Assembly (NCBI RefSeq): GCF_014805625.2
Contig: NW_023998605.1
Coordinates: 38,506 to 102,505 of the forward strand
DNA: 64,000 bases
Reading direction: 5' to 3'
Source of the DNA: Glossina fuscipes
Taxonomy: Eukaryota > Arthropoda > Insecta > Diptera > Glossinidae
How positions within the stretch are numbered: position 1 is the first letter of the stretch; each line of letters begins with the position of its first letter. The translations under genes were made by a program, and so were the position numbers. The notes beneath the pieces were generated by a model that saw only the letters and a list, made by a program, of their open reading frames with translations, made no database searches and was not told the DNA's origin. Below are positions 11,056-34,608 of the stretch, piece after piece.

Positions 11056-11140
11056 CCAAGCCGATAGCCTTAGATGCTAGTGCTTTTAATAGTTTAGTCT
11101 TAGAATTTATTTCTCTGGCGAAATTAATAATAATAATAAT
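11056..11140 (+). repeat. SINE 3' tail, 5'-truncated copy
   Basis: The sequence from agccgatagccttagatg through ctctggcgaaattaa and a (TAA)n tail is the 3' part of the SINE seen complete at 11229-11402. It is in the opposite orientation, and no tRNA-like head is present. Confidence 0.8.
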
Positions 11141-11165
11141 AATATATATATATATATATGTATTA
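11127..11165. repeat. (TAA)n-(AT)n microsatellite
   Basis: The TAA-type SINE tail passes into an AT dinucleotide run. It lies between the two inverted SINE copies, so it would form the loop of a hairpin. Confidence 0.8.
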
Positions 11166-11228
11166 TATTGTATATGTACAATTTTTTTTTCCTGGAATGG
11201 TTGTAATATTCCCCCTTTTTTGTAATAT

Positions 11229-11402
11229 ATTATTATTATTGTTACAAATTTAGCCAGAGAATAAATTCTAAGACTAAAGCCGTAAAGCCCTAGCATCTAA
11301 GGCTCTCGGCTTTTATTAAAAATCTACCGCACTTGAGATTTGAACCTACGACCATTGGAGATGCTAGTCGACACTCTTGCCTACTCGGCCATTCAGGCGA
11401 AT
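11229..11402 (-). mobile_element. Full-length tRNA-derived SINE with 13-bp TSD
   Basis: Read on the minus strand, the 5' head starts CGCCTGAATGG. It contains an A-box-like TGGCCGAGTAGG (11380-11391) and a B-box-like GGTTCAAATC (11337-11346), the two internal RNA polymerase III promoter elements of a tRNA. The head resembles a class II (Ser/Leu-type) tRNA. A linker and a TAA-type tail follow. The copy is bracketed by the perfect direct repeat ttttttgtaatat at 11216-11228 and 11403-11415, which is good evidence for target-primed insertion. Its length is about 174 bp. The 3' half is homologous to the end of the I-clade LINE at 55 kb. Confidence 0.85.
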
Positions 11403-11709: not shown

Positions 11710-14047
11710 TCATTGCTTTGATATAATATTGCGCATCTGACGTATAGCCGTCACTAAGCGCGGTTCGCATCCTGCACTTAATGCGAGATAATTTTCTGGT
11801 TCTGCCTTAAGCAACGTATGAATTTGATTTAACGTTATACTAAGAGTAAGCCCAAGCTCTTCTACCACACTCCTGAAATATTCAATATCAACTGTCAACT
11901 GCCGTGCCATCGCAGTATTTAAGTTTTTTATTTGCAATATTTGTGTTTGGTATAAGACGGAACATTGTGTGACGACCAAACTTAACAAAATGTCGGCACT
12001 GGGAATAGGTTGGCTGTAGTTGATATTACACATTTCTAAAGCTTGTTTTAGAATAGGAGAGGGAGCTAAAAGAAGTGGTTCTAAGTGTTGAGGCAAAGTC
12101 AATAAATATTGACCAATTTGTGTTATTGATTCCTGAGGCGCAAAACTAAAAGCCGGCATGTCTTCTACATGGCTTTGATTTAAATCTGTGGGTGGCTGTA
12201 TGCAGCATAAATGCGTTTCCAGTGGATGCAAGAGGATATTTAAAGTAACGTCATGAATTTCTTTAAAGTAAAGTTTAAAAGAATCATAAATGTTGTTGAA
12301 AATACCCAAATATATAATTTGATTATCTTGGCTTGGTTCCAAACGTTTCTGTTGAAATTCATTTATACTAGCCAAAAGTCTTTGCTGCTCCACACTTTCA
12401 AATGTCTGATAAAAATTTATTGAAGTTTGCTGTGAATGTCGAAGGTTTTGCTCCAAAACATTTAAACGTTCATGTAGAACTTTTTCAAAATTTTGCAATC
12501 TTTGCTGAAAATCGGCTAAACATTCCAGCAGACCTAATGTGTACTGTAATAATGACCAACTACACTCCGAATTTGCTCCAGCATGAAGTGTTAGTTGACG
12601 TTGTATCTTGGCAAATTGGTCTAATATACGCTTAAATATTCCAGCAAACAAATTAATAAGCTTACACAATGCCAAATCTCCACTTATATTTGAACATCTA
12701 ACTAAAGCCTCCGTCAGCCAATCAAACGTCTTATTAATCGCATCCTTTAAATGACGCACCGCATCGCTGATGTGCGTTTGTGCTTGTGTTATTAAAGTAC
12801 GATCAATTTGCCTTGATAACAGCGTCTCCTCGAGGCGCGGATATTGCTCTATAAATTTGTAAAAATATTCATAGATTGCCTGTCCCAAATTCTGTCTTAA
12901 TTCTTTTTTCAGTTGTATGCATGCTTGGTTTAGATAGGCATTTAATTGCATTACAAATGTATGGTTATCTTGAGCGTAACGTTGTAACAACTCTAGGCGT
13001 TCATTGCATGATCTGAGTAGTTGTAGAATATGATTATATCTGGTTGGTTGCAGAGCAGGTAAAAGTTCTACTAACACAAGAAAAGGCTGCTTCTGAGCTT
13101 CTTGATCTTCGAAAACTTGAAAGCACCATTTTACTTGTGCTTGAAAGTTCTCCATCAAATGATCGTAAAATAAAGCAAGAAACTGCTGTTGTTGTGTGAT
13201 AGATTCAGTAGCCTGCAATTCCAAAGTCTGCTTCCATTGCTGTTGCAGAGCGGTCTTCTGCACAGCTCGATAATACTGAACAAGCTGAGATTTTCTATGA
13301 ATAGCATCAAATATAGTAACATAATGTTGAGCTTGCTTCACGTTACCCTCGGCAAAACACTGCACAACTTTGGGAGAAGCTAAGGCTTCTAAACGATTTT
13401 TGAAATCCTCGACTTGAGATTGACGTTCGCTATGACCTGGCAATTGTTCTTGAGCTAGCAAACTCTTCTGCAAAGCCACTATTTTATCGCAAATCCCCTG
13501 AAATCGACGTCGTTTTTTATCCATAATGAACTAAAATTGACGCAGAAAAAAAACAATCGTTTACCTTTACGTCGTTACGCTCAAAACCATCTTCGAGGCT
13601 GGCTATTAAATTACCCCAACCGTCAGATTCTTGTAATGACTCCTTCGCATTTTGAACCTTGATTTGCATAGAATTCAAATGGTCCAAAGTAGTCATACAT
13701 TCACCCGTCTCCTTCTGAACAGCGGCTACCTCTTGATGCATTAAAAGCATGCGTTGCTGTAAACGCTGAACACCCGCTTTCAATGACCTGGCCTCTTCCA
13801 CAATACGTGGCATAGTGGAAACTAATCGGTGGCTACTTTCCTCTAAAGCATAGTTTACTTGTTGCACGTATAATTGCAATTTGGAAACGTAGTTGTTAAT
13901 AAAATCGATGGCTCTTTCATGGTCGATCAAAGATTTTTTTTGATCCTCTTTACTTAAAACCTTATTTTCTTCCACATATTTTTGGAAATTTTCATTAATC
14001 CATTGCACAGGATTAAATTTATCCTCCGACAAAGCAATCATATCCAT
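11710..14047 (-). CDS. Cog7: Conserved oligomeric Golgi complex subunit 7 (two exons)
   Basis: COG7 is a lobe-B subunit of the eight-part COG tether. COG acts at the cytosolic face of the Golgi in retrograde vesicle traffic and is needed for glycosyltransferase retention. Exon 1 is 13565-14047 (161 codons) and exon 2 is 11710-13497 (595 codons plus TGA), giving 756 aa, close to the roughly 770 aa of human COG7. The start MDMIALSEDKFNPVQWINEN parallels the human N-terminus, and FKNRLEALASP is a near-identical block just after the splice. The joint GTAAAC...TTTCAG removes 67 nt in phase 0 and gives a gap-free alignment across the junction as I recall the human protein. The protein is rich in helix-forming Gln/Leu, as expected of CATCHR-type tethers. 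All other genes in the window look dead, whereas this frame is fully open. Upstream promoter elements are not evident. Confidence 0.93.
13498..13564 (-). other. COG7 intron, 67 nt
   Basis: On the minus strand the donor AAG/GTAAAC and the acceptor TTTCAG/GGG bound a 67-nt intron of typical fly length. A second TTTTAG lies upstream (intron end 13531) and would give a 34-nt intron in the same frame, adding about 11 codons. The shorter version seems too short to splice and would insert residues into a well-aligned region. Confidence 0.8.
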
Positions 14048-15357
14048 TATTTCAACAAAATTCCTTTATAAGATCTGCAATTTAACAAACGTTTTCTCTT
14101 ATGATTTCAATAACCTTACTCTTTTTCTTCTTTTAGTGGCTAGCTCCGGGTGCAACAATATCAGAAGCACAAACACAATGAAGTCAGTCGAACATGTAGC
14201 TGACAGACTCGTATGTGTTGTTAAAGAAAAATCATACGGACAGTATTTGTTTACATCAATGTTGATGAAGTGCAAAGTTAGTAAAACAAAAAATTTCTTT
14301 GAGAAATAGCCCTTTTAAAGAAACAAAAAAAAATTTGTTTTTTTGATAAGAATACAACTTACTTAAATATACATATTTTTTTTTGTTAAAGAAAAATGTG
14401 AAGGACTACTTGAAAATCATAATGTGCTTGAAACATCAACCATACAATTATGTCCTGTTTTCGCGAAAACACAACACTGTTTAGTTTGGTTGTCAAAAGC
14501 CCTGCACGCCGAAATTTAAAGAAATTGTGTTCGCGCACAACGCAACGCAAGTTGTATGTTTATATAAACATAAACGCGTAGTATTTTGCTTTATTTCGTA
14601 TTTTGGTTTAGAAAATCATTTTGTAAAGAGCTTTTTTTATGTTAGCAATCGATAGACATATGATTTTGATTTGCCAACAGCTTCATAGTTCAATTATTGT
14701 GTTCTGCACACTAATCGTTTCTTGATACGACGATAAACTAAAAAAAGTTTACTATGTACAATTCTGTGTAGAAATTATGCACAATCCCAACAAGATGCGC
14801 TCTCTCATATTTATCAAATCTTGCGAAAGCTAAATAACTGACATTTTCCGTTAGTATTGGTTGTCCACAGATAGTACTCGTTGCTAAGACATGCGTAAAA
14901 AAGAAAAAACAGGTATAATGAAAAGAAAACGAAATCCAAAAAAAAATTGTTCTGCAAACAGCGGAACCAAACAAAAAACTTTAAATGATAAATCTTAAGG
15001 TTGAAAAAAAAAGTATATGTGATAACATAAAGCTTTCTTTATAAAACGCTTTTTAATAGACCGTCATTCTTCAATGTAACAAAAATAAGATTTCATTTGC
15101 AATTCACTTTAAAGCACTACGTAATATATTCAGATAAATTCATTCATATTATACTTGACAATAACCCTTAATTACTTTATTAATGAAGACAGTGAAAAAG
15201 AAAAGTATGTTTAACATGTTACTAATGCATGCAGGAAAAAAAAGTAGATCTGACAGCTAATTCATAGACGCTTTGACACATAGTTGTTACGCTGATGTAT
15301 ACTTATAGTAGGTTTTCTAACATATACATATGTTGATAGATTCTTATAATGCATTCT
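14048..15357. other. COG7 upstream region, no other gene
   Basis: This should contain the COG7 5' UTR and promoter, but I see no decisive TATA or initiator. A 43-codon plus-strand frame begins at 14178 and is too short to call. An ATCGATAG (about 14647) resembles part of the DRE motif of fly housekeeping promoters, but it is 600 bp away from the start codon. The rest is AT-rich. Confidence 0.4.
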
Positions 15358-15575
15358 AGAAATTTTCAATTGGTGAGTCTTACATTTTCAACAAAATTTT
15401 TAAACTGCTTCACATGAATTGACTTGGTAAACATGTCAGTCAATTAGTCTACAGTTGTTATATGTTCAAGCTGAATGTCACCAGCAGATTTGTTATCTTT
15501 CACGAAATGACATGAAATATCGATATTAATACGTTTAGTTTTAAGTTTGCCGTACGAATACATGCTCTCTTATCC
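15358..15575 (-). pseudogene. Ty1/copia RNase H C-terminus relic
   Basis: The minus strand reads KTKRINIDISCHFVKD, then SAGDIQLEHI, LTDMFTKSIHVKQF and NFVENVRL. This matches the end of copia-family polyproteins (the segment around KHIDIRYHF and ADIFTK). One stop interrupts it between TTVD and LTDM. Upstream sequence is too decayed to read. Confidence 0.8.
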
Positions 15576-15601
15576 TTATATAACGTAATTAGTTCACTAG
15601 T

Positions 15602-15904
15602 TCATTGTAAAATTTCCTCTAGGAGGTTTTCCACTTCGCCTCTAGTCGCATTATCATTACGATCTACAATATTGTCTGGGACAAAATTGTTTTGCATTTC
15701 AATATATGAATAATTAATTTCTTCTAAATAGTCAGCTTGACATTCAGCATCGCGTTTTATAACTGAACCTTTTTGTTGACTACCCGTACTATCTTTCAAT
15801 TCTTTTATTAGCGTTATGTTATGCTCTTGTTTAATACCCAATTTTTTACTTAATTCTTGAATGAAGCAATGCATATCAGCGATGCGGCCATTCATCAGCA
15901 ACAC
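15602..15904 (-). CDS. Unrecognised 100-aa frame in the copia relic
   Basis: A short acidic frame rich in Glu, Lys, Asn and Asp lies directly upstream (minus strand) of the copia RNase H remains. Its first part (GRIADMHCFIQELSKKLGI) could correspond to the copia segment before RNase H. The remainder has no recognisable motif. It is probably transposon debris rather than a gene. Confidence 0.25.
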   Translation of the reverse strand: MLLMNGRIADMHCFIQELSKKLGIKQEHNITLIKELKDSTGSQQKGSVIKRDAECQADYLEEINYSYIEMQNNFVPDNIVDRNDNATRGEVENLLEEILQ

Positions 15905-17519
15905 TTATAATTCCGTAATTGCTTTAAGTCTCAACAACGATCATTTTTGGGTGGAGCGGCAACGATTTCCATACCATTATGATATTAAGTACTTATCGTA
16001 AGGAAGAATTAGATTCTTCGTCAGATTCGTCGTTCAGGTTCCGCAAAGAGAATTATCTTAAGTAAATAATTTGGTGCTCATTTGCTTATGAAAAAAAACA
16101 AATTTCTAATATTAAGATATGTCGGATAATCGGAATGTCTGCATCGAAAACTTCGATATACTATCATATCGCCACTTGTTGAAGTTGTACCTATCTCATT
16201 TATTTATAACTTAAAATTTTTTGTTAGAACTATAATCTAATTTGCCATATACATATCATCTGCATGACATGAGCAGCACAAGAAGTCATTTAATTAATCT
16301 TAATTTTTTAAGCTCCTCCTTCATAAGCAAGTAACGGCTGCTGTAACCAATGTTGGTTCTCAAAAAGTGATAATTCAATGCTTCAGGGTGTAACGGGTTT
16401 TGTTGGATGGGGTATAACTCAGCCACTCCAAGGTTCGTTGCAAGAATAGTTATTTGGAATAAAATTTACCTTCGGTACTGATGTTCAATGTCTTTATTTC
16501 GTATTCACAGGAGTGCAGCGTTGTGTAGAGGTTGGCGAGGAAAAGAAACCAGCGGGTCACCTCGCTGGTTTCTTTTCTTTCTTTTTCTGTACGCGTAGTT
16601 GGAGCTTTTTCATTCGCTTTTTTTTCGATGTCGCGGAACACTACAAAAAAAAAAAGAAACCGGATACGTTGCCAGTGTCATAGCTGCCTTGGTTTGTCTC
16701 CGGGTGGGTATTCGTATGTAAACACAAAAAAAAGATGGTCCTCAGTCCTTCAGGGATGACGACTAACAACTAGCCAGTATATCCCCCATCCGTAAAGTCA
16801 AAAAAAGAATAGACTTGTCATATTGTCCGTACCCACTTACCTTCTAAACTAAACTGAACGATTCTGTGCGATGTGCTGCTCAAGCCGCTATTGTTTTTAG
16901 CTTAGCAAATAATCGGTAGACACGCATAATAAATGTACATCAAATCTCAGTAAATTTATTGGTATCATTGTCATGATAACGTAAATTAAAACCTAAATTT
17001 ATTCATATCATTGTCATTATTTGCCTTTTTGTTAAGAAAGGAAGGTGTCATTTGAGACATAGTAAGAGGTATTTAAAAAAAAGATCCATTAGAGGTTCCA
17101 ATGTTATTAAGCTTATCGGTGTGACTGACATCGACATTAAAGTTGCATTGAGAGTCATGCTAAATAATTGTACTAAAACTTAGTATATTTTGTGTTTGAA
17201 TTTTACAAATTATTGAGTTATCTAAGTAAATTTCGGTAAATTCAATTAATTTGGATTGTGCTTTTAGTATTTCTTATAACTAATTTATGTATTATACGTA
17301 CGCGATGAAAACTTGATTTTTTATTCCTTTATACATTTACGTTATTTTTTCGGAGGCCAAATAGTCTAGAACTAATTTTAAAGTAAAAATTTTCATTTTC
17401 ACTCAATTAGTTTGTTCGGTTTGTACCTATGTTAAGTTAGCATTAACCAAATCTTATATTTATTTATATATATGTATTATTTGTTTAAATTTAGCTCTTA
17501 AAAATTATTTCTTCCTGTA
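15905..17519. other. No gene recognised; one strong hairpin
   Basis: Only short open frames occur. The notable structure is the perfect inverted repeat at 16540-16577. The flanks are AT-rich and show no terminal repeats that I could pair. Confidence 0.4.
16540..16577. repeat. Perfect 15-bp inverted repeat, 8-nt loop
   Basis: The arm gaaaagaaaccagcg (16540-16554) is followed by an 8-nt loop and its exact reverse complement (16563-16577). Surrounding sequence is purine-rich then pyrimidine-rich and would weakly extend the stem. Its function is unknown. Confidence 0.85.
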
Positions 17520-17682
17520 ATGACGGTGCCAATTTTACGTGAAAAAGGTTTTGAAATTAAAGCTCTTTGGGGACGAACCGTAAAAGAAGCGGAAGAGTTT
17601 TCATCATCCCAAAATATCGCTTTTTTTACCAACAAAATTGATGATGTTTTATTACGAAAAGACGTGGATTTAGTGTTTGTTA
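17520..17682 (+). pseudogene. Fragment of GFOD-type oxidoreductase gene
   Basis: About 54 codons read VPILREKGFEIKALWGRT, then EAEEF, and then KIDDVLLRKDVDLV. These match the N-terminal Rossmann region of glucose-fructose oxidoreductase domain-containing proteins (GFOD1/2), beginning near residue 18 of the human protein. The glycine-rich nucleotide-binding start is missing, and homology stops abruptly at DVDLVFV. The frame then runs without a gap into VPS55-like sequence in another frame. It is a fragment, not a gene. Confidence 0.8.
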
Positions 17683-17880
17683 TTATTTGTTATTATTATG
17701 ACCTTTTTAATATTGGCTTGTGCTGTGCCACAACCGAAGATTTTTTATCCCTTCTTTGTTTTAATATTCTACGTACTTTCCGTGATACCAATGATGCTGG
17801 CGAAACGCTTGTCACCCGGTTCTGAAACAAATCCAAAAACCGAGTTCGCGTTGTTCCTAACCTCGGGAATGGTTCATAGT
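17683..17880 (+). pseudogene. Fragment of VPS55/LEPROT family gene
   Basis: The frame at 17677-17910 reads MTFLILACAVPQPKIFYPF, then FYVLSVIPMMLAKRL and TEFALFLTSGMV. This matches transmembrane segments 1-3 of VPS55/LEPROT proteins (endosomal, about 130 aa, four membrane spans). Both the N-terminus and the last membrane span are missing, and the C-terminal residues of the frame are unrelated. It abuts the GFOD fragment directly and has no splice or promoter context, so it looks like a captured piece. Confidence 0.75.
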
Positions 17881-17956
17881 TTCAATTGTGGAAATCAAAT
17901 AAGAAGATGACTTAAAGAACACTGCAATTCCTCTAGGAACTGCTGATGAAAAAAAA

Positions 17957-18095
17957 AAGGGGAATACAAAGCCGTAAAATATTGAGAATGTTGAGCTGCC
18001 ACGCCCATAACAGCCCCGTTGGGTCCGCGGAATACAATTGGGACATTGATCTGCCCCCCCGACATGTAGAACGTTTTAGCCGCTGAATTAATAAC
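17957..18095 (-). pseudogene. Fragment of pyruvate dehydrogenase E1 beta gene
   Basis: The minus strand reads [19 protein letters not shown], then [19 protein letters not shown]. About 46 codons are nearly identical to the mitochondrial PDHB central region as I recall it from human. The reading frame is open throughout. Just upstream, the expected MQAIDQ segment is shortened to ATGCAAG, which suggests a small deletion. Orientation is opposite to the neighbouring fragments. Confidence 0.85.
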
Positions 18096-18185
18096 CTTGC
18101 ATCAAATTGTTTAAAGATATAAAAATCGTAAAGTATTTAGAGATCTCAATTACAACCGTGCAATAATATATTTTTTTTTTTTCAG

Positions 18186-18355
18186 ACGAAGGAACATATT
18201 GTGGAAAAGTATGGCGGTGAAGAACATTGAAGAACATTTGCAAGCACCACCTAAAACGCTAAATCGCTACTGTTGGCCCAAACCGAAGATTATATAGAAT
18301 ATTCGTGTAGCGGCAAAAGAATGGAAAAACCAAAAGCTCGTAGTATATAAGGATA
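18186..18355 (+). pseudogene. Fragment of splicing factor SLU7 gene with its splice acceptor
   Basis: After a T-tract and CAG (ending 18185) the sequence reads EHIVEKYGGEEH, then after frame changes [18 protein letters not shown] and EKPKARSI. This matches the SLU7 region around YGGEEHL..PP..LLLAQTE.YVEYSR. The poly-pyrimidine/CAG boundary looks like a retained 3' splice site, which implies copying from genomic DNA rather than mRNA. At least two frameshifts and a stop are present. Confidence 0.65.
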
Positions 18356-18460
18356 TTATCTTAGTAATATATAAACTGGGATTATTTGGGAAAAATGAAA
18401 ATCTCATATTAATCTATTGTTAATTATTTTGAAAAATTGAAAAATTTGATGTTAATTCTT

Positions 18461-19002
18461 TCCATATATTCACACAAGTGCTTGAAATATAATATATAAT
18501 CTTTTTTATATAAATGTATCAAAAATATGCATTCATCTCCCCTTGTACGTCTCCTGAATAGTTTTATACAATTTTTATAGGCGTGGCATTCGATTTTACC
18601 CTATTTTCAAAAAAAAATGAATATTCTCTTTCCATATATATTCACAGAAATGGTTTGGTTGAAATGTAATATATAATCTTTTTTATATAAATGTATCAAA
18701 AATATGCATTCATATCCCCTTGTACATCTCCTGAATAGTTTTATACAATTTTTATAGGCGTGGCATTCGATTTTATCCTATTTTCAAAAAAAAAATGAAT
18801 ATTCTCTTTCCATATATATTCACAGAAATGGTTTGGTTGAAATGTAATATATAATCTTTTTTATATAAATGTATCAAAAATATGCATTCATCTCCCCTTG
18901 TACGTCTCCTGAATAGTTTTATACAATTTTTATAGGCGTGGCATTCGATTTTACCCTATTTTCAAAAAAAAATGAATATTCTCTTTCCATATATATTCAA
19001 AC
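18461..19002 (+). repeat. Three tandem ~178-bp units, left arm of fold-back array
   Basis: Units begin near 18455, 18631 and 18809 (spacings 178 and 177) and a partial fourth near 18986. Each contains atgcattcatctccccttgt, tacaatttttataggcgtgg and attctctttccatatatatt. Units are very similar, with a few shared variants (for example taccc versus tatcc near the end). They start about 100 bp after the captured gene fragments. Confidence 0.9.
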
Positions 19003-19113
19003 CATTTGTTTCAAACCATTTATATATATATTCAAACCATATATATTCAAACCATTTATATTCAAACCAAAGCGCAGAATAGGTATGAATAAGAGCTGTC
19101 CGACACAACCCAT
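19003..19113. repeat. Spacer of fold-back array
   Basis: About 110 bp between the arms. It contains several copies of attcaaacca and then a short unique segment ending in acacaacccat. Confidence 0.8.
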
Positions 19114-19503
19114 GTTTGAATATATATGGAAAGAGAATATTCATTTTTTTTTTTTGAAAATAGGATAAAATCGAATGCCACGCCTATAAAAATTGTATAA
19201 AACTATTCAGGAGACGTACAAGGGGAGATGAATGCATATTTTTGATACATTTATATAAAAAAGATTATATATTACATTTCAACCAAACCATTTGTTTGAA
19301 TATATATGGAAAGAGAATATTCATTTTTTTTTGAAAATAGGGTAAAATCGAATGCCACGCCTATAAAAATTGTATAAAACTATTCAGGAGACGTACAAGG
19401 GGAGATGAATGCATATTTTTGATACATTTATATAAAAAAGATTATATATTACATTTCAACCAAACCATTTGTTTGAATATATATGGAAAGAGAATATTCA
19501 TAT
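19114..19503 (-). repeat. Two inverted ~178-bp units, right arm
   Basis: The reverse complement of the left-arm units. Their gtttgaatatatatgg boundaries fall at 19114, 19294 and 19471 (spacings 180 and 177). The first unit carries the tatcc variant and the second the taccc variant. Confidence 0.9.
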
Positions 19504-19844
19504 TCGTTGTAGAAGAGCTTCAACTTGATCGACCCACAACGTTTCAATTGTTGAACATATAAAGGGCGAATAAATTGACGGTCTATCCTACGCTTTTGCT
19601 TTTTTCAGGAAATACAATCTGAACCTTAGCGTTATTTCATTTTAGGACATCGCGATCTTTCGCTAGATATACGTATGTATATACTTGATTACCCCAAGAT
19701 GTTCAAATTCCATCAGCTCCTTTAATTTCGCTTTGTGCAATGTCCTGGCGAATGTTGACATACACTGAACAAATAGAACATAAAACTTGTATCGTAGCCT
19801 TACTTTAAAAATGTATTTATTTGTTTATTTATATATATTTGCAT
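19504..19844. other. Unassigned sequence after the fold-back array
   Basis: No recognised gene. The minus strand has a short frame reading FARTLHKAKLKELMEFEHLG that could be a further captured exon, but I could not identify it. Confidence 0.3.
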
Positions 19845-20070
19845 TGTTTTTTTATATTTATTTATTTATTTATTTATTTATTTATTTTAATTCTACTTAT
19901 ACATGAAACTCAACTAAACAAATAACAGTCGAGTTCAATTGGCTCTTAATGCAAAACTTATATTAATTAATAATAAAACTTAGTATAAGTACAATAAAAC
20001 AAATAAGAAGGAAAAAAAAAAAGAGAAAAAAGCACGTACACAACCAGCATGGAGCCATACTTACAACCGC
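19845..20070 (-). repeat. LINE family A 3' end, strongly truncated copy
   Basis: Beyond an (ATTT)n tail (19850-19890), the sequence from gaaactcaactaaacaaata to cataagtac-type motifs matches 31256-31470, the 3' UTR of the family A copy. Homology is lost near 20070. Confidence 0.8.
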
Positions 20071-21274
20071 TCTTTTATAGCTGAAGTCTCGCTCGCTTGT
20101 CCTATTGCCAACATGTTCTATGTGTTTACATACGCCTTGAGGTACTATGCTTATGTGTATGCTTAGCTTAGGTTGGCTGCAGTCGCAACCTTAGTTACGA
20201 CTTGCATGATCCTGCTTATACATAACTTAATACCAACTTACGTCTAGCTTATTACTATGTTTGTTCAAATGCCTACGCAACAGGCAGCCAGGTACCAAAT
20301 CGCGTGATTCAACCACCGTTAGGTATGTGAGTGCTTGTGCCTTTCTATGCCTTTGTGTTTGCATATGCCTTAGTTTGTGTGGTTCTACATGCTTGGCATG
20401 TGTGATCGTGCCTTTGTACCATTTGTGTATGCAGTCGTATGTTCTTATTTTTTTTTCTACCTAAGTATTTACTCCTGTAAGTTTTGTATAACCTAACGGT
20501 GCTGTACAACTTTGTACTTTGCTTGAAAATTTTATCTGACCTAACGGTGCTTATGCAATAATGTATAATGCTCTACGCGTTTCGTGTCTTGCTTGCATGT
20601 GCTTATATATTTTTTGTGTGGCCTGATCTTTTTATATACATCGTTAAGGGTACTTGCCTATATATTTGTACACGAGTGTTTGTACATATGGGTGACTTTT
20701 ATATGGTCTAGTCTCTTTATATACATTGTTGTGGGGTTTTGTCGTTTATATCTTTTATACAAGGGTGTGTGTTCCTATGGGTTTACTAACATAGGCATAT
20801 TCGATATGTGTTTATAATTTTTCTCGTTACAAAACATTTGGAGCTGGACGAGGTTGTTCATGTTTACTTAATTCAATCAGACGTTTACGGACCGCTCGGA
20901 CTGACAGGTGGTTCGCTGTGGGTAACTGTTTTAGGCGGACGGACTTGTATTCCGTAAGGAAGCAAAAATGCTTCCTTACAAGGGTTAAATTCGCGCACTA
21001 TGTGAGTCTTTCTAACGGCGATTTCCTAGGAGGATGGTTGACATTCAGCTTCTTGTTAAAGTAAAGGTGTTTCATGTGCCTGGCAACATTATTTCTGTAC
21101 TTAAAGAAAACCATCCAATTAAAAGCAACTTTTCCAGATTTTATATGCTCGATTACGGAGCCTTTTGGTCCTTTTGGCTTCACTGGAAAATCAGGATGGC
21201 TTCAAAGTACGCACTTCTCACGTCTTCAATAGCACCTACTCATTAATTAACATAGAAAGAGAATACTTTAATTT
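20071..21274. other. No gene recognised; small hairpin
   Basis: T/G-rich sequence with short Cys/Leu/Tyr-rich frames that I do not credit. A perfect inverted repeat (gtaaggaagc, 6-nt loop, gcttccttac) occupies 20954-20979. A 70-codon frame at 21034-21246 is unrecognised. Confidence 0.4.
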
Positions 21275-21989
21275 ATATATTTTTTTTTTTTTATTTATTT
21301 TATTTTAGCTCTTTACACATGAAATTCAACTAAAGAAAATTACATTCGAATTTAGTGTATCTTAATAGAAAATCTTATACTAATTGTTTTAAAACTAGTA
21401 TACAATAAAAAGGAAGAAAAAAGAAGAATAATAATAACAGAGTAAGTTTAAAAATAAATTAAAAAGTTAAAAATAATAAGTCATTTATAAATAAGTAAAA
21501 CGAGAGAAAAAAAAGCATGTGCTCAGCTAGCACAGAAGTACACCTGCAACAAGAACAGATCCAGGTTGCAAGTGAACCCCTAAATCAATGCAAACATGCA
21601 TAAGCTTGGCAACCAACACGTTACCAATACTATATTATTTTAAATAAAAAATGAGATATTAAGAATGAAATGCCAGTGTAAGTGCGCCATAGGTAAATCT
21701 CGCATATTAAGCAAAGTTGCTTTAATAAACTTTAAAGAGTCCGATAATGAGAATAAGTAATAGACATCATTTAGGTTTTTGCAAACAACTTTGAGCGGGT
21801 TAAATAGTTCATGATTGTATTTGCATTGACTAAGCTTTATCAAGATAAGGTGCCTAGAGAAACGTTTAGGGACATTTAAGTTTATCCCACCAAGTAATGC
21901 GGGCGAGTCAATAGTACCGTTTATTACTTTGATTAAGAAGGAAACCTTAAGAACAAATCTACGCATCACAAATGACGGTAAGGAAAACA

Positions 21990-24060
21990 GAATCAATCTA
22001 CTTTCATGGCGGAAAAAGAGGGGCAATCGGGTCCCAAAAGAAATTCCTAAGGGCAAACAACAAGATTTGCTTTTGAACAGATATTATTGAATAGCACCTA
22101 TATGAAGAAGACCACACAACAGGGGCATACTCGAGTATGGGTCTAACCAAGCACATGAACAGCCTTTTCGTAATGTAGGGATCATTAAGCTCTTTGGACC
22201 AACTCTCTATAAAACCAAGCGCGGACCTAGCTTTGCTTATCGGGAGCTCAATATGCAAGTTGAAACGTAACCTATGGTTAAATAGTACGCCTAAATCTGT
22301 GATCGAATCGACGTCCTCCAATTTATGCGAATCTATGAAATACTTTGTAATGAATGACTTTCTTCTTGAGAAAGAAAGCTTCTTACATTTACCCAGATTT
22401 AGTTTCAGAAGATTCAAAGAGCACCATGCAACCAAATTATTCAAGTCACTTTGAAGCTGATGTGATTGCGATTCTACGGAAAAGAAAGAAAAAAGTTTCA
22501 CACCATCAGCATTCATTAACATCTGGCTGGAATTAATCACCGAGGGTAAATCATTAATGTATAAATTAAATAAAGTGGATCCTAAGTGGCTTGAGGTACG
22601 CGAGAAACACTAGAAAAAGCTTTGAAAACATGAGAAGTAAACGCTAACAGATTGGTGACCGTAGGTGTTTCTTTTCGAAAGCCGCGTTGGAGAGGAGAAA
22701 TATACGATTTAATGGTAAAGGCCATATACTGAGTCATAATTCGCTGGACCAGTTTAGACAAGACACTCAATTTGGCAATGTCTCTGAAGTTCTCAACATG
22801 GTGTCTATTCCCACTTTTGTGAATAGGAATAAGGGAACTAGTCTTCAACACAAAGGAAAAGCATCCAAATTCAAGCACAGGTTAAAAATCTTTGAGTTAA
22901 CGTCGCATAGCTCGACGGCATAGGTATTAAGTACACATGATGGAATTGCATTAGGTCCAGGCGCACAATTATATTTTAGAGAGCTCAGCTCTTCAAAAAC
23001 GTCATTTTCAGAAATAACCAGAATTGGAATTAAAACCAAATTAGTAATCGGATATAGATAGTTTGCTAATAAATCGAAATTAGCAATCGAAAAGTTTTGT
23101 AGGAAGTATTCCGCAAAGGTATTTGATGTTTCAATATCATCCGACGACTCAGGCCCAATAAGGAAACGTGCGAGGGATTTATGAAGATTTTCCTTTTGGA
23201 ATTAACGAACTTAGCAAAGTATTTTCGATTAGCAAACAGAGAGGATTTAAAAACTGAAGGTATCTGCAATAATATTTGTGGTTGAGGGAATTAAATCTAT
23301 GCCTTGTAGCCGAGTAAGCGAAATAATCGAAAGCAGAGACACGTTTCGAAAATTTCTTGACAAGCTTGTTTTTCCTATTTTTGTAGCATTTAATTGTCTT
23401 ATTAAGCCACGGGGGCACCTGCTGCGAGGACGCCAATGCTTGATCAGAAAGGCTGCAGAACTAGCTTGATTTAATATATTGTAGAATGGCGACAGTAAGC
23501 TATCAATGCTTCCAACTGAGAAATCAAGCATAATATGTGAAAGATGTGATTTTGCATTGAAACATTGATTTTATGGAAATCATAAAATTTATTTGAAAAA
23601 GTTGAATCTGGAAAGTTATAGAAGTTTAATGAACCATCATGCTTGTAATGAAAGAAAATATCCAATGCAGGATGATAAGGTCCTCAGGTAAACTAAAAGG
23701 AAGACAACGATTAAGACAAATGTCTGGAAAATTGGCAAAGCAAAGACCAAGCACTCTACCATTGCAATTAGAGATACTGTTGTATTGAACTAAATTATGA
23801 TCGAATAATTCATTAAAGAACACAACAGCTCTATCATGACGATGAAATAGGAATCAAACAGCCAGAACTATCACTGTAACACCAAGTGGCTTGAAGCAAA
23901 TTGAAGTCACCCGAAGCAATGATTTTATCGGAAGGCTTAGATTGCTTCGCAATGAGGGCAGCCTGTTTCTTATATATGGAGATATCTGACTTTCGGGAAA
24001 TATAGGAGCAGGAGCCGGTTACATATAACTGTTTATTAGGAAATTTTGCTCAATAAAACT
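21990..24060 (-). pseudogene. LINE family A ORF2 relic
   Basis: Scattered over many frames: GDFNL (endonuclease, about 23900), GRVLGLCFANFPDICLNRC (23626-23823), RHRFNSLNHKYYCRYLQF (23179-23436), IPIHKSGNRHHVENFRDIAK (22582-22878, RT) and MNADGVKLF (22004-22540). The last corresponds to the catalytic YADD box but reads NADG, so polymerase activity is lost. Every segment has a counterpart in the copy at 31.7-33.3 kb. Frames are broken throughout. Confidence 0.85.
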
Positions 24061-24384
24061 TTATAATAAAACTTTATAAACTTGAGGAATCAGAGGTGAC
24101 GAACCACACGCTACACAACGAGTTGTAACTTTGCTAGATGGGGAAGAAGATGAGTGCGCAATATAGCGACACTCATCAAACCTAGTCGTAATTTTTTCAA
24201 TTTTCTCCCACAAGGAGCTGAGAAATTTGCTCAAATCTGAAAAACAATTTGTCATGTCTGTGAAGAGTTTATGGAAACCTATGTTCTGCTTTGTGCAGTC
24301 AGGACATGACCATCGTAAGTCTTTTGAGGGATGAAGGACTGCTTCAGCAACATGGCTGACAATACCAGCCACTTTACATGGCAA
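24061..24384 (-). pseudogene. LINE family A ORF1 N-terminal fragment
   Basis: A 107-aa frame with LRWSCPDC, LWEKIEKI and CVACG, homologous to the piece at 34237-34464. Just upstream, in a broken frame, are Cys pairs (CEMCDR) of a PHD-like zinc finger. A zinc-binding N-terminal domain in ORF1 fits some jockey/CR1-like elements. The C-terminal RNA-binding part is missing in this copy. Confidence 0.6.
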
Positions 24385-29814: not shown

Positions 29815-30174
29815 TATCCGCCTGAGTAGCCGAAGGCGAGGAATCTCGACTAGTAATTTTTCTGGTCGTATATTAAATTTTTCTGGTCGTATAATAAATT
29901 TTTCTGGTCGTATAATAAATTTTTTGGTCGTATCATAAATTTTTCTGGTCGTATATTAAATTTTCTTGGTCGTATAATAAATTTTTCTGGTCGTATAATA
30001 AAATTTTCTGGTCGTATAATAAATTTTTCTGGTCGCAAGTCAATGGTCGTGGGTTCGAATCTCAAGTGCGGTAGAGTTTTTAATAAAAGCCAATAGCCTT
30101 TGATGCTAGTGCTTTTAAGAGTTTAGTCTTACAATTTATATCTCTGGCGAAATTAATGATAATAATAATGATAA
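29815..30174 (+). mobile_element. tRNA-derived SINE with internal minisatellite
   Basis: The head begins ccgcctgagtagccgaagg, a B-box GGTTCGAATC lies at 30052-30061, and the 3' half (gccaatagcctttgatgcta onward) ends in a TAA/GATAAT tail. The flanks taaaaatcgta (29804-29814) and taaaaattgta (30175-30185) are an 11-bp TSD with one mismatch. Without the roughly 189 bp of inserted minisatellite, its length matches the 174-bp copy at 11229-11402. The insert separates the A-box region from the B box, so this copy's internal promoter is probably poor. Confidence 0.85.
29857..30035 (+). repeat. Minisatellite, nine ~21-bp units
   Basis: tctggtcg-type cores recur at 29861, 29882, 29903, 29923, 29944, 29965, 29986, 30007 and 30028. 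The unit is about tttttctggtcgtataataa. The seed was probably the native SINE segment catctccaatggtcg between the two promoter boxes. The minus-strand frame at 29850-30065 is just this repeat translated. Confidence 0.95.
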
Positions 30175-30797
30175 TAAAAATTGTAAACAAATTCGACTCT
30201 TATTTTCACATCTTTAGAATTATTGAGAATCATTTTCAGTTGAAGGCAAATTTTTATACGCTTACTCTCGCATGCACGCAATTTTTATACAAATACTTGA
30301 ACAATATTAAAAATTGTAAACAAATTGGACTCTTATTCTTACATCTTTGGAATTATTGAGAATCATTTTTTTTTTTATACGTTTTATTGCGAGTTGCAAT
30401 TGGAAGTTGCGAATTGTTTTGCTGAGAGCAAAATTTACTTTGCTTCATATTTTTTTATGAATGCCCTTTTTAACTTTTTCCCTTTTAATTTCGCAGACGC
30501 GTCGCCCTTTATCAAACAATTCTGAGACGAGTATAATTCCTTCGCATAAGTATAATGCTTTCTCGCAATTTTGATTCAGATGCCTCTTTGTAGTGCGATT
30601 TCTCTTTTTTGCTTTTTGAATTCCCAAAAACTGTTTGATGTGTTTATTATTAAGAGAAACCAGCTATTCTTTAGACCACTTTTATTTACTCTTCCTTTTC
30701 TGAAAATTTTGCGAATCAGCGACAAATGGTGCCAAGTGAGAAAAGTTCAGGGTGAACACAAAATTCCTGGGGTGAACCTTACGAAATAATAAAAAAT

Positions 30798-30915
30798 AAG
30801 CATTTATCTCCCCTTGTATGCCTCCTGAATAGTTTTATACAATTTTTATAGACCTGCCGTTCGATTTTGCCCTATTTTGAAAAATTTTCTCCTAATTCTC
30901 ACCATATATTCGTAC
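30798..30915 (+). repeat. Single divergent relative of the 178-bp unit
   Basis: tctccccttgtatgcctcct, tagttttatacaatttttat and ttcgattttgccctattttg match the core of the units at 18.5-19.5 kb, with about 10-15% difference by eye. It stands alone without inverted partners. The flanking sequence to 31080 is unassigned. Confidence 0.75.
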
Positions 30916-31080
30916 AAGTATACCCTCTCCCATTGAGACGAATAAGAAGCCCAGCAATTATGTGCCATCAATTCAAAAAGCGGTCTTAAGGTTTTTGTGC
31001 CGATCACCGAAGGGTGAGGGTATATTAATTTTGTCAACACATTGCAACGCCCAGAAGAAAGCATCAGATACCGCACATTG

Positions 31081-31249
31081 AATTATAAATCAGCTTAAAC
31101 ATTTCGCTCTGACCGTCTGCGTAATGTTACTTGTAAACTTGTAAACATTCTCCTGGTCGCGAAAACGACGCTATCGACTTTAAATTGGTATCGAAATGTA
31201 ATATATTTTTCAGTTTCCATTGACTTTCTTTTAACATATATTTCACATA
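31081..31249. other. Unassigned spacer
   Basis: AT-rich sequence between the 178-bp-like repeat and the 3' tail of the LINE family A copy. Nothing recognisable. Confidence 0.4.
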
Positions 31250-31672
31250 TATTTATTTTATTTATTTATTCCACTTATAATAGAAACTCAACTAAACAAA
31301 TAACAGTCGAGTTCAATTGGCTCTTAATGCAAAACTTATATTAATTAACAATAAAATTGAGTATAAGCATAATAAAACAAATAAGAAGAAAAAAAAAAAA
31401 AAAAAAGAAAAAGAAAAAAGAAAAAAGCATGTACACTATCAGCATAGGAGCACACTTACAACCGGTACAGGACCAAATTGCAAATGAATCCCTAAGCCAT
31501 CGCAAACATGCATAAGCCTGGCAACCGATAATAAATTGACAATAATTCACTTCCGAAACGAACCACCGATGGGAGATCGTTAATGTATAAACTAAATAAA
31601 ATAGGACCTAAGTGATGGAGTTAAACAAAACTCTGAAGGATCTATTGTGCAGATAAGAGCTTATCCATTTCA

Positions 31673-33343
31673 CTAAGTAGGGTGGAAACAAGAGGCTTGG
31701 AGTTTAAAGATAAGTAGTCTATGGTTAACCATATCAAACGCTTTGTTAGAATCAGTGTAAATAACATCTGTGCGAGAGCCGCTAGAAAAAGCCTTGAAAA
31801 CATGACAGGTAAACTCTAACAAGTTGGTGACTGTAGATCGCCCTTTACGAAAGCCGTGCTGGTGCGGAGAAATATACGAATTAATGACAAAGGCCAAATG
31901 CTGAGTCACAATACGCTCGAACAACTTGGGCAAGACACTCAACTTGGCTATGCCTCTGTAGTTATCAACAAATTGTCTACTTCCACTCTTGTGGATAGGA
32001 ATAAGGAAACTACTCTTCCAACATGAAGGGAAAACACCTAAATACAAGGACATGTTAAAAATCCTTGAGATCACACCACATAACTCGACAGCGCATGATT
32101 TAAGTACACATGATGGAATTCCATTAGGTCCAGTCGAACAACTGTGTTTTAGAGAACTCAACCCTTTAAAAACATCATCTTCCGAAATAACCAAGCTACG
32201 TATTGAAACCGAGTTAGTTATAGGATATGGGTAGTTTGCTAATAAATCGAAATTAGCAATTGAAAAGTTTCGTTGGAAATACTCAGCAAATAGATTTGAG
32301 ATTTCAAAATCATCCGAGAAATCAGAGCCATTAAAAGAAACATGAGAGGGATATGTGGAAATTTTTCTTTTAGAGTTAACAAATTTAAAGAAGAATTTAG
32401 GATTAGCAAACAGAGAGGATTTAATGAACTGAAGGTATCTGCAGTAATAATGATGGTTGAGGGAGTTAAATCTATGCCTCGCCACCGAGTAAGCGACATA
32501 GTCGAGCGCAGAGCCACTTTTCGAATATTTTTTGAATAGCGACTTTTTTCTACTCTTGTGACATTTAATTGTCTTATTAAACCACGGAGGACACCTGCTT
32601 CGAGGTCGACAATGCTTGATCGGAACAGATGCAGCAATATCTAGATTTAATGTATTGTAGAACGATGACAATAAGCTTTCAATACTACCGGTTGAGAAAT
32701 CAAGGGTTACATGTGAAAGACGATGTTTTAGTAATACAATATTGATTTTATGAAAATCATAATAATTATTTAAAAAAGTATGATTAAGGCATTTCAACAA
32801 ACCATCATTCATATGATGAAAGGAAATGCATATTGACGGACGATAAGGATCCTCAGGTAAACTAAAAGGTGGACAACGATTTACGTAAATCTCGGGAAAA
32901 TTGGCAAAGCAGAGATCAAGCAGTCTACCATTACAATTAGGGGTACGATTATATTGACCCAAATTATGATCAAACAATTCACTAAAGAACACAACAGCCC
33001 TATCAGACGTTGAAGTAGGAACCAAACAGCCAGAATTATCAGTGCTACACCAAGTGACTTGAGGCAAATTGAAGTCACCCAATGCAACGACCAAATCAGT
33101 GGGTCTAGACCGCTTGGCCACTTCACAAATGAGGGAAGCGTGTTTCCTGTAAATGGAGATATCGGAATTTGGGGGAATATAGGAGCAGGTTATAAATAGA
33201 TGTTTATCAGGCATATTCGCAAGAATAGCGATAAATTCAACGTCAGGAGAAGTGGGAAATTCAATTAAATTGGACGGGACTGACGCAGATATGGCAATTA
33301 ATACACCATCACCAATGCGATTCACTCGATCATTTCTAAACAC
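31673..33343 (-). pseudogene. LINE family A ORF2, 556-aa open frame (EN plus partial RT)
   Basis: Endonuclease motifs include VALGDFNLPQVTW, CNGRLLDLCFANFPEIYVN and PEDPYRPSI. The last stands where a His (YHP) is usual in jockey/CR1 endonucleases. The linker PPWFNKTIKCHK follows. The RT contains IPIHKSGSRQFVDNYRGI, HQHGFRKGRSTVTNLL and SNKAFDMVNH (motif A), and then stops. The open frame is unusually long for this window. The endonuclease N-terminus is in a different frame (see 33336-34274), so a shift separates them. Confidence 0.85.
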
Positions 33344-34608
33344 GGAAAGAATTATGAAAAAGTTCCGACGAATGAAGATCGGGTTTTAGCCAAGTTTCAG
33401 TAAAGGCCAAACAGAAAAATACCGTGCTCACTGAATTTAGAAAAGTGGAACGAATTTTCGAATTTAGGCCCCTAACATTTTGATAAATGAGAGATAGTGG
33501 GCCTGAAGAAACAATTAGTTTTTTTGAAGGCGACAAGACTATTGCCTTGGTATTACGGGGACGATCTCGAGGGATAAATTCCTTAATTAAGGATCCTACT
33601 GGCCACACTGATTTGTTTAACAACATATCACTGTTTTCAGTCGGAACTAATATTTTAAAAGAGGAGATTGCCCTAGCTGGAGAAGAAGCCATTTTGAAGA
33701 TGCTAACACGCTTTAAATTGACTGATGGGACTTTCGTCGCCAGATAACCTTTTATGTTATCCACCGTTGTTTCAGGTGCCAGGCTTGACACAAATATTGC
33801 TTTTCTAGGAGGAACTGCCGTCAAGCAAATGTCATTATTTGGAACAGGAGGAGGGTTCACGGTAGGACAGTTTCGCGTTGGGGAAAATATGGATGGGGTT
33901 ATCGCCCTTGTACCGGCAGCTTGTGAGACTTGCCCAGTCTGGTGACCAGCATTCACACGCGAACAGCTAGGAGTAGAGGATGATTTATTTTTCTCTTCAT
34001 TACTTTTAGGCGATGGCGCTTGATTAGAGTGATTGGCGGCTCTGGGCGGAGATACCCTTGCCACTTCAGCGTAGCTTAAAACCGACGGACTTGTCGGTTT
34101 GTTTGTAACTGTTTTGCTACCAACCGACTCAGCAATATCGGAAACATTACTGTTCATTTTAGAGTTAGAGGGAGCGGTAACTTGTACCAACGAATCAGAT
34201 TTGGAGAAAGCCAGAGGTGACGTCTCACACGCTACGCTACGAGTAGAAGTGTCCAATAAAACGACACTGATCAAACCTAGACTTAATTAGCTCAAACTTT
34301 TCCCACAAGGAGCCGAGATTTCTACTCAATTCCGAGAAACCATAACGGGTCTCCGTAAAAAGGTTATAAAAATCAATGTCCCGCTGCCTACAGTCAGGAC
34401 ATGACCATCTTAAGCCTTTAGACGGATCAGCGACTGCGTCAGCAGCACGGCCGAGAATACCGGCNNNNNNNNNNNNNNNNNNNNNNNNNNNNNNNNNNNN
34501 NNNNNNNNNNNNNNNNNNNNNNNNNNNNNNNNNNNNNNNNNNNNNNNNNNNNNNNNNNNNNNNNGTCCAGTCAAAAAGACAGTTGTGGATTATGAAGAAC
34601 AGACACAC
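33336..34608 (-). pseudogene. LINE family A ORF1 running into endonuclease start
   Basis: The upper part has LRWSCPDC (zinc-finger end), a Ser/Pro/Asn-rich middle, and an RNA-binding-like segment KAIFVSSLAPETTVDNIKGY. The frame at 33336-34274 continues without a stop into SLIYQNVRGLNSKIRS and CLAFTETWLK, which are the first endonuclease motifs. ORF1 and the start of ORF2 are thus in one frame here, either by a fused design or by chance loss of the ORF1 stop. The 100-N gap (34465-34564) hides the beginning. Confidence 0.65.
34465..34564. other. Assembly gap (100 N)
   Basis: A run of exactly 100 N, probably a gap of unknown length. It lies inside ORF1 of the family A copy. Confidence 1.

Follow-up and report, generated by a model that had tools for sequence, protein, structure and literature searches.

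Mosaic of host-gene pieces with differing cargo at many places in the genome of Glossina fuscipes

A 64,000-nucleotide stretch of the Glossina fuscipes genome (assembly GCF_014805625.2, contig NW_023998605.1, positions 38,506 to 102,505 of the forward strand; in the following, the window) contains at 17157 to 18357 a mosaic of host-gene pieces, among them fragments of GFOD, VPS55, PDHB and SLU7. The mosaic of these four genes is confirmed. Sequence belonging to it is carried at at least 40 places in the genome, where a core of SLU7 and a tandem array is found with differing gene pieces, so that the single-copy state, which the original prediction of a gene-capturing element had named as evidence against itself, does not apply. 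The explanation favoured here, to which we give about an even chance, is a serial joining of gene pieces by template switching, after which one version was spread by a retrotransposon.

Composition of the mosaic

The following features were recognized in the window (L and C numbers denote loci and contigs).
17157 to 17527, plus strand: sequence from the probable 3' region of a gene at a low-copy locus (95.2% identity to L059, 95.0% to L060)
17525 to 17680, plus strand: part of a GFOD exon, 156 bp long (99.4% identical to the open exon C277:1531226-1531381)
17691 to 17873, plus strand: part of a VPS55 exon, 183 bp long (96.7% identical to the open exon C277:3826418-3826600)
17876 to 17942, minus strand: exon-like frame of 22 protein letters
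17961 to 18098, minus strand: PDHB exon piece (9.4e-16 to human PDHB)
18128 to 18185, plus strand: intron-like GT...AG stretch of 58 bp before the SLU7 exon, ending in polypyrimidine-CAG
18186 to 18357, plus strand: SLU7 exon piece with frame breaks (4.7e-13 to human SLU7)
18457 to 18999, plus strand: tandem array with a unit of approximately 178 bp
19113 to 19504, minus strand: tandem array of the same unit, inverted

All four fragments of the original prediction, in the orientations given there, gave significant matches. Besides the two human proteins listed, these were GFOD1 (PDB 8y7p; phmmer E 6.7e-15) for the GFOD piece and the Pfam family Vps55 (2.9e-12) for the VPS55 piece; the SLU7 value was obtained with a reading joined by hand across the frame breaks. 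In Pfam, the GFOD piece (GFO_IDH_MocA, 0.0093) and the PDHB piece (Transket_pyr, 0.0016) were under the cut-off, and no match was found for the single-frame SLU7 open reading frame or for the frame at 17876 to 17942. The VPS55 piece had no match in PDB, and a search of Rfam at the gathering threshold gave none either. The polypyrimidine-CAG of the predicted acceptor before SLU7 and the fold-back array behind it are both present. Ahead of the exon-like frame at 17942 to 17876, an acceptor-like polypyrimidine (poly-T) tract with CATCAG is located at 17958 to 17943 on the minus strand. This frame, its acceptor-like motif and the intron-like stretches were read from the sequence, and none of the stretches has been confirmed as an intron by a spliced transcript.

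The acceptor-like motif and frame at 17958 to 17876 (minus strand) and the gene-like piece at 17157 to 17527 had been missed in the original prediction. The latter matches L061 in two pieces (93.7% and 98.6%). In L059, an open frame of 86 amino acids, for which no significant Pfam match was found, ends approximately 120 bp upstream of the copy of this sequence, which is therefore now read as the probable 3' region of a gene; an assignment of 17157 to 17524 to another transposon was dropped because of this position in a low-copy locus. A gene-like source can be assigned to most of 17157 to 18357. The piece at 17157 to 17527 (judged by the L059 frame), GFOD, VPS55, SLU7 and the zf-AD exon of other copies are in sense with the core, PDHB and the frame at 17876 to 17942 in antisense. 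That all recognized pieces are exonic may be in part a detection effect, since other pieces would be unrecognizable.

Mapping of the fragments to parent genes, as proposed in the original prediction, yielded open exons for GFOD and VPS55. The PDHB piece is found at 39 places in the genome, with an unconfirmed parent candidate at C285:16187246 (96%). A PDHB piece (C197:58977-59033) and a GFOD piece (C197:59515-59668) are separated by approximately 0.5 kb and arranged differently from those of the window. Because of this proximity, C197:59515 was dropped as a GFOD allele, and the site may be another mosaic.

Copies and their cargo

The assembly (366 Mb, 709 contigs) was searched with window positions 17520 to 18360. 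The 47 search rows were merged by hand to 40 places; since 40 of 74 candidates were scored, this number is a lower bound. Sequences were fetched for 38 of the 40 places, including the window (those on C512 and C210 were left out), and L001 to L009 and L049 to L058, being further cuts of places already listed, were excluded from all counts. C570 and C571 resemble one locus present twice.

Ten places are near full length at 97 to 100% identity. The SLU7 piece is present, whole or in part, in 36 of the 38 fetched loci (exceptions L027 and L046), and in the PDHB-SLU7 part nearest neighbours are 96 to 100% identical (no value for L028, L034 and L035; L027 outside the set). The window type with GFOD, VPS55, PDHB and SLU7 was found in 10 of the 38 loci. 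VPS55 is present and GFOD absent in L019 and L020, and L021 contains the VPS55 end. L028, L032, L034 and L035 begin close to the border between VPS55 and PDHB (L032 and L034 do so with a further short piece), and L025, L026, L029 and L030 carry PDHB and SLU7. L046 is a short PDHB-side piece, and L027 consists of GFOD and part of VPS55. In L040, L041 and L045, a zf-AD zinc-finger exon (3.6e-16 for the L045 reading) and an intron-like stretch are joined ahead of SLU7 at GTAAAG, a junction belonging to the intron-like stretch at 18128 to 18185 of the window. Another piece with acceptor-like TTTATCAG was found in L031, L033, L036, L037 and L043, and L038 holds just the inner 86 bp. Approximately 650 bp of other sequence are common to L022, L023 and L024; Pfam and PDB searches with these pieces gave nothing significant. 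L039, L042 and L044 contain SLU7 and hardly anything else.

In the left part of L032 and L034, a 29-bp SLU7 stretch (GCAAAGGAATGGAAAAACCAAAAGCTCGT) is duplicated ahead of the end of VPS55, which represents a rearrangement within the repeat. The insertions L031, L033 and L022 are located in or beside another short repeat holding GGATTATTTTCTAT-like stretches. Array-type units are also found inverted in L022 (1603 to 1886), and a lone unit of approximately 130 bp (about 78 to 97% identical to units of the window and of the loci fetched) is located at 30789 to 30919 of the window, away from recognized gene pieces.

Order of additions and source of the pieces

The match to the VPS55 parent extends over 281 bp (96.1%) in L019 and 277 bp (94.9%) in L020. 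It sets in with the very first base of the parent sequence that was fetched and crosses an acceptor-like TTTATAG, and both loci hold at least 58 bp of left-side parental VPS55 sequence absent from the window; they are therefore not truncations of the window type. A reading of the extra sequence as an intron was dropped, as the parent frame is open upstream of TTTATAG, and it reads as parental upstream sequence with an acceptor-like motif. Furthermore, 33 bp of the parent exon missing after the VPS55 piece of the window are kept in L019 and L020. The GFOD piece comprises 184 bp in L027 and 164 bp in L016, compared to 156 bp in the window. Parental letters absent from the long form are thus retained in the short forms, which represent older states; for VPS55 and GFOD it follows that pieces were joined on the left after an earlier end had been trimmed.

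An unspliced source of the pieces is likely, given that the SLU7 and zf-AD pieces are accompanied by intron-like GT...AG stretches and that L019 and L020 reach the acceptor-like TTTATAG. To this extent the proposed copying from genomic DNA instead of mRNA is supported; as worded it went too far, because unspliced RNA may also have been the source.

Ends of the copies

Transposon end criteria were applied to the 21 of the 38 loci for which both edges were set. The edges were derived from BLAST limits, partly by hand and eye, and are thus uncertain by a few bases. The longest direct edge repeat, as a measure of target-site duplication (TSD), had a mean of 2.71 bp compared to 2.95 bp in mismatched pairs; a 6-bp repeat was found in one copy (L015), a length reached by 5.5% of mismatched pairs. 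For terminal inverted repeats (TIR), the mean inverted match was 3.62 bp compared to 3.70 bp in mismatched pairs (longest 7). A Helitron 5' TC was present at the set start of none of the 21 copies and within 6 bp in 11, a 3' CTRR in none when a slip of 6 bp was allowed, and an insertion site between A and T in none. The Helitron or TIR/Pack vehicle of the original prediction thus found no support, apart from the lack of TSD, which fits a Helitron. TIR and fixed-length TSD not exceeding mismatched pairs also speak against a Pack-TIR DNA transposon. The marks of a retrocopy mobilized by a long interspersed nuclear element (LINE), TSD and a 3' A-rich tail, were likewise lacking, apart from the tail seen by eye in L027.

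The right ends are scattered inside the array. The two arms of the fold-back array are not terminal repeats: inverted units were found in only 4 of 20 loci scanned, and the spacer contains, at 19068 to 19112, a reversed piece of the surrounding element (93% over 45 bp).

The surrounding element

In the window, the mosaic is part of an insert in a repeat element, termed Z.
16389 to 16881, plus strand: part of Z directly left of the insert, with a 5' end common to L010, L012/L014, L013, L017, L047 and the window, which have six different upstream flanks
16882 to 20062: insert in Z carrying the whole mosaic, with the window ends ...CTGCTC and ...ACCGCTC
19505 to 19848: block at 7 places (besides the window, three at 97 to 99% and three at 85 to 87%)
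19849 to 20062, minus strand: 3' end of a non-long-terminal-repeat (non-LTR) retrotransposon, tail at 19849 (81% to window 31229 to 31464)
20063 to 20829, plus strand: detected extent of the right part of Z (identity to L013 of 83.6% and 76.9% in pieces)

A single position in the 5' part of Z marks the beginning of the mosaic, both in the window and in four or more further loci. The left part matches L010 in three pieces (76 to 80%), and the L010 insert has CCGCTC at both ends. In L063 (C171:7570440-7570760), the left part of Z is joined directly to the right part, representing an uninterrupted site. In L026, the sequence of 19849 to 20062 continues unbroken into sequence like that of the window from 21507 onward. 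The 5' end of Z is constant in independent copies with six distinct flanks, as in a Jockey-like non-LTR element. A reverse transcriptase domain (RVT_1, 3.2e-9) was found in L013 only, and L010 and L017 match L013 only upstream of this frame. Z is probably a Jockey-like retrotransposon.

Origin and spread of the mosaic

According to the favoured explanation, the stable core would be the SLU7 exon with the intron-like stretch, followed in most copies by the tandem unit of approximately 170 bp, and the other end would have been repeatedly trimmed and joined to new gene pieces. PDHB and its neighbour would have been added first, followed by VPS55, GFOD and another locus, and sister lineages would have received the zf-AD exon or other pieces instead. 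The joining would most likely have occurred by template switching during the patching of a DNA break with a copy of the repeat, with pieces drawn from unspliced transcripts or from DNA of transcribed genes. One version would then have inserted in the 5' region of the probable Jockey-like retrotransposon and spread with it, the window containing one such copy. Template-switch patching is favoured because of the open ends, the lack of TSD and the gene-derived pieces in both orientations. It had been named as the main alternative in the original prediction and fits the open ends better than a capturing transposon; what it did not foresee is the amplification of the product, partly inside a probable retrotransposon. 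From the gene-capturing element itself, the multi-copy state and the differing cargo remain, the proposed vehicle does not.

Work on human cells (PMC5110952) describes class 2 templated sequence insertions, which share with the mosaic short pieces of distant loci, donors staying in place (here the open-frame parent exons of GFOD and VPS55), the lack of TSD and, except for L027, the lack of poly(A); RNA is favoured there as the source of such patches. They are described as single events, in contrast to the repeated additions and the multi-copy product found here. The joins of the mosaic were inspected for microhomology and filler by eye only.

Several observations do not fit this explanation easily. 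Some independent copies have the same left end (L025/L029/L026, L032/L034, L022/L023 and L019/L020), a coincidence not predicted by patching; together with the wandering right ends this is the main feature left without explanation. A pure RNA source does not predict antisense pieces, of which there are two among the seven. The relative age of GFOD and VPS55 depends on 1 mismatch in 156 bp compared to 6 in 183, too few for proof, the L016 GFOD piece has 4 mismatches in 164, and 17157 to 17527, younger than GFOD in the proposed order, is just 95% identical to its source. Parents were verified for GFOD and VPS55, not for SLU7, zf-AD and PDHB. The assignment of Z as a Jockey element is based on the single locus L013, whose right flank of the array is unlike that of the window, and for none of the copies outside Z did we find an empty site.

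More tentatively, the repeat could be an open-ended mobile patchwork, lacking a fixed outer end and swapping its outer host-gene piece, the copies forming a ladder of captures and retrotransposons serving as occasional carriers. If this doubtful ladder existed, a single genome would record successive captures of gene pieces with the parents still present; one could then read directly in which order, when and by which mechanism exons were joined, and chimeras from break patching could turn into a repeat family amplified in the 5' region of a retrotransposon.

The nearest rival is a composite non-LTR retrotransposon driven by a LINE-type enzyme, which would insert transcripts of the repeat, trim their 5' ends and jump to other RNAs. 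Composite retrotransposons of the SVA type, with 5' additions, a tandem-repeat part and a variable 5' end containing host exons, are similar in organization. The LINE-driven reading would agree with pieces being added at one end, with truncation on the left, with the sense orientation of five of the seven pieces, with AAAATAAAAAAAAAA directly after L027 and with the probable non-LTR element in which the window type rides. Unlike SVA, the 21 copies with set edges lack TSD, an A-rich tail was seen in L027 alone among the edges inspected, and the right ends wander within the array, so that this mode of origin is considered unlikely. Capture of neighbouring gene DNA by a Helitron or Helentron reading past its own end appears improbable. 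It would be consistent with retained intron-like stretches, mixed orientation, lack of TSD and internal tandem repeats. DINE-TR1 elements, which are Helentrons with central tandem repeats of about 150 bp, are likewise dispersed and have a unit similar in length. Against it stand the left ends, which vary between groups, and the failure of all 21 copies to show TC, CTRR and the insertion site, tests that cover Helitron ends and not the Helentron marks (T-rich insertion, subterminal inverted repeats and 3' hairpin). Culex Helentrons, as described in PMC4067079, carry histone gene pieces and resemble the mosaic in being multi-copy with decayed gene pieces and, in such elements, tandem repeats; the mosaic differs in having no Helitron ends and one open end varying by lineage.

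A single break-repair patchwork multiplied by segmental duplication and worn from both ends would account for the longer flanks common to L036/L043 and L031/L033. C29 and C171 hold 10 of the 40 places compared to 1.56 expected, although these contigs (3.9% of the assembly) were picked after the list had been seen. This possibility is largely refuted, and we regard it as quite improbable, since the lineages differ in gene pieces and the short forms keep parental letters absent from the long form. A Pack-type or fold-back DNA transposon using the inverted arrays (18457 to 19504) as terminal repeats is scarcely credible: the cargo does not lie between the arrays, inverted units occur in only 4 of 20 loci scanned, and neither TIR nor TSD were detected in 21 copies.

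Further features of the window

A COG7 gene is located on the minus strand at 11710 to 14065 (Pfam COG7, 3.1e-48, N-terminal frame). Minus-strand frames at 15390 to 15930 resemble the end of a copia-type pol. Two related non-LTR retrotransposon copies (21507 to 24369 and 31229 to 34464, minus strand) are 74 to 81% alike in pieces. A palindrome-like repeat is common to 11058 to 11357 and 30041 to 30173, with relatives in L017 and other loci, and the latter copy is adjoined by a tandem array of a 21-bp unit at 29855 to 30035. Gene pieces of a kind unlike the mosaic are carried by the Y chromosome of Bactrocera oleae, according to PMC3049792.
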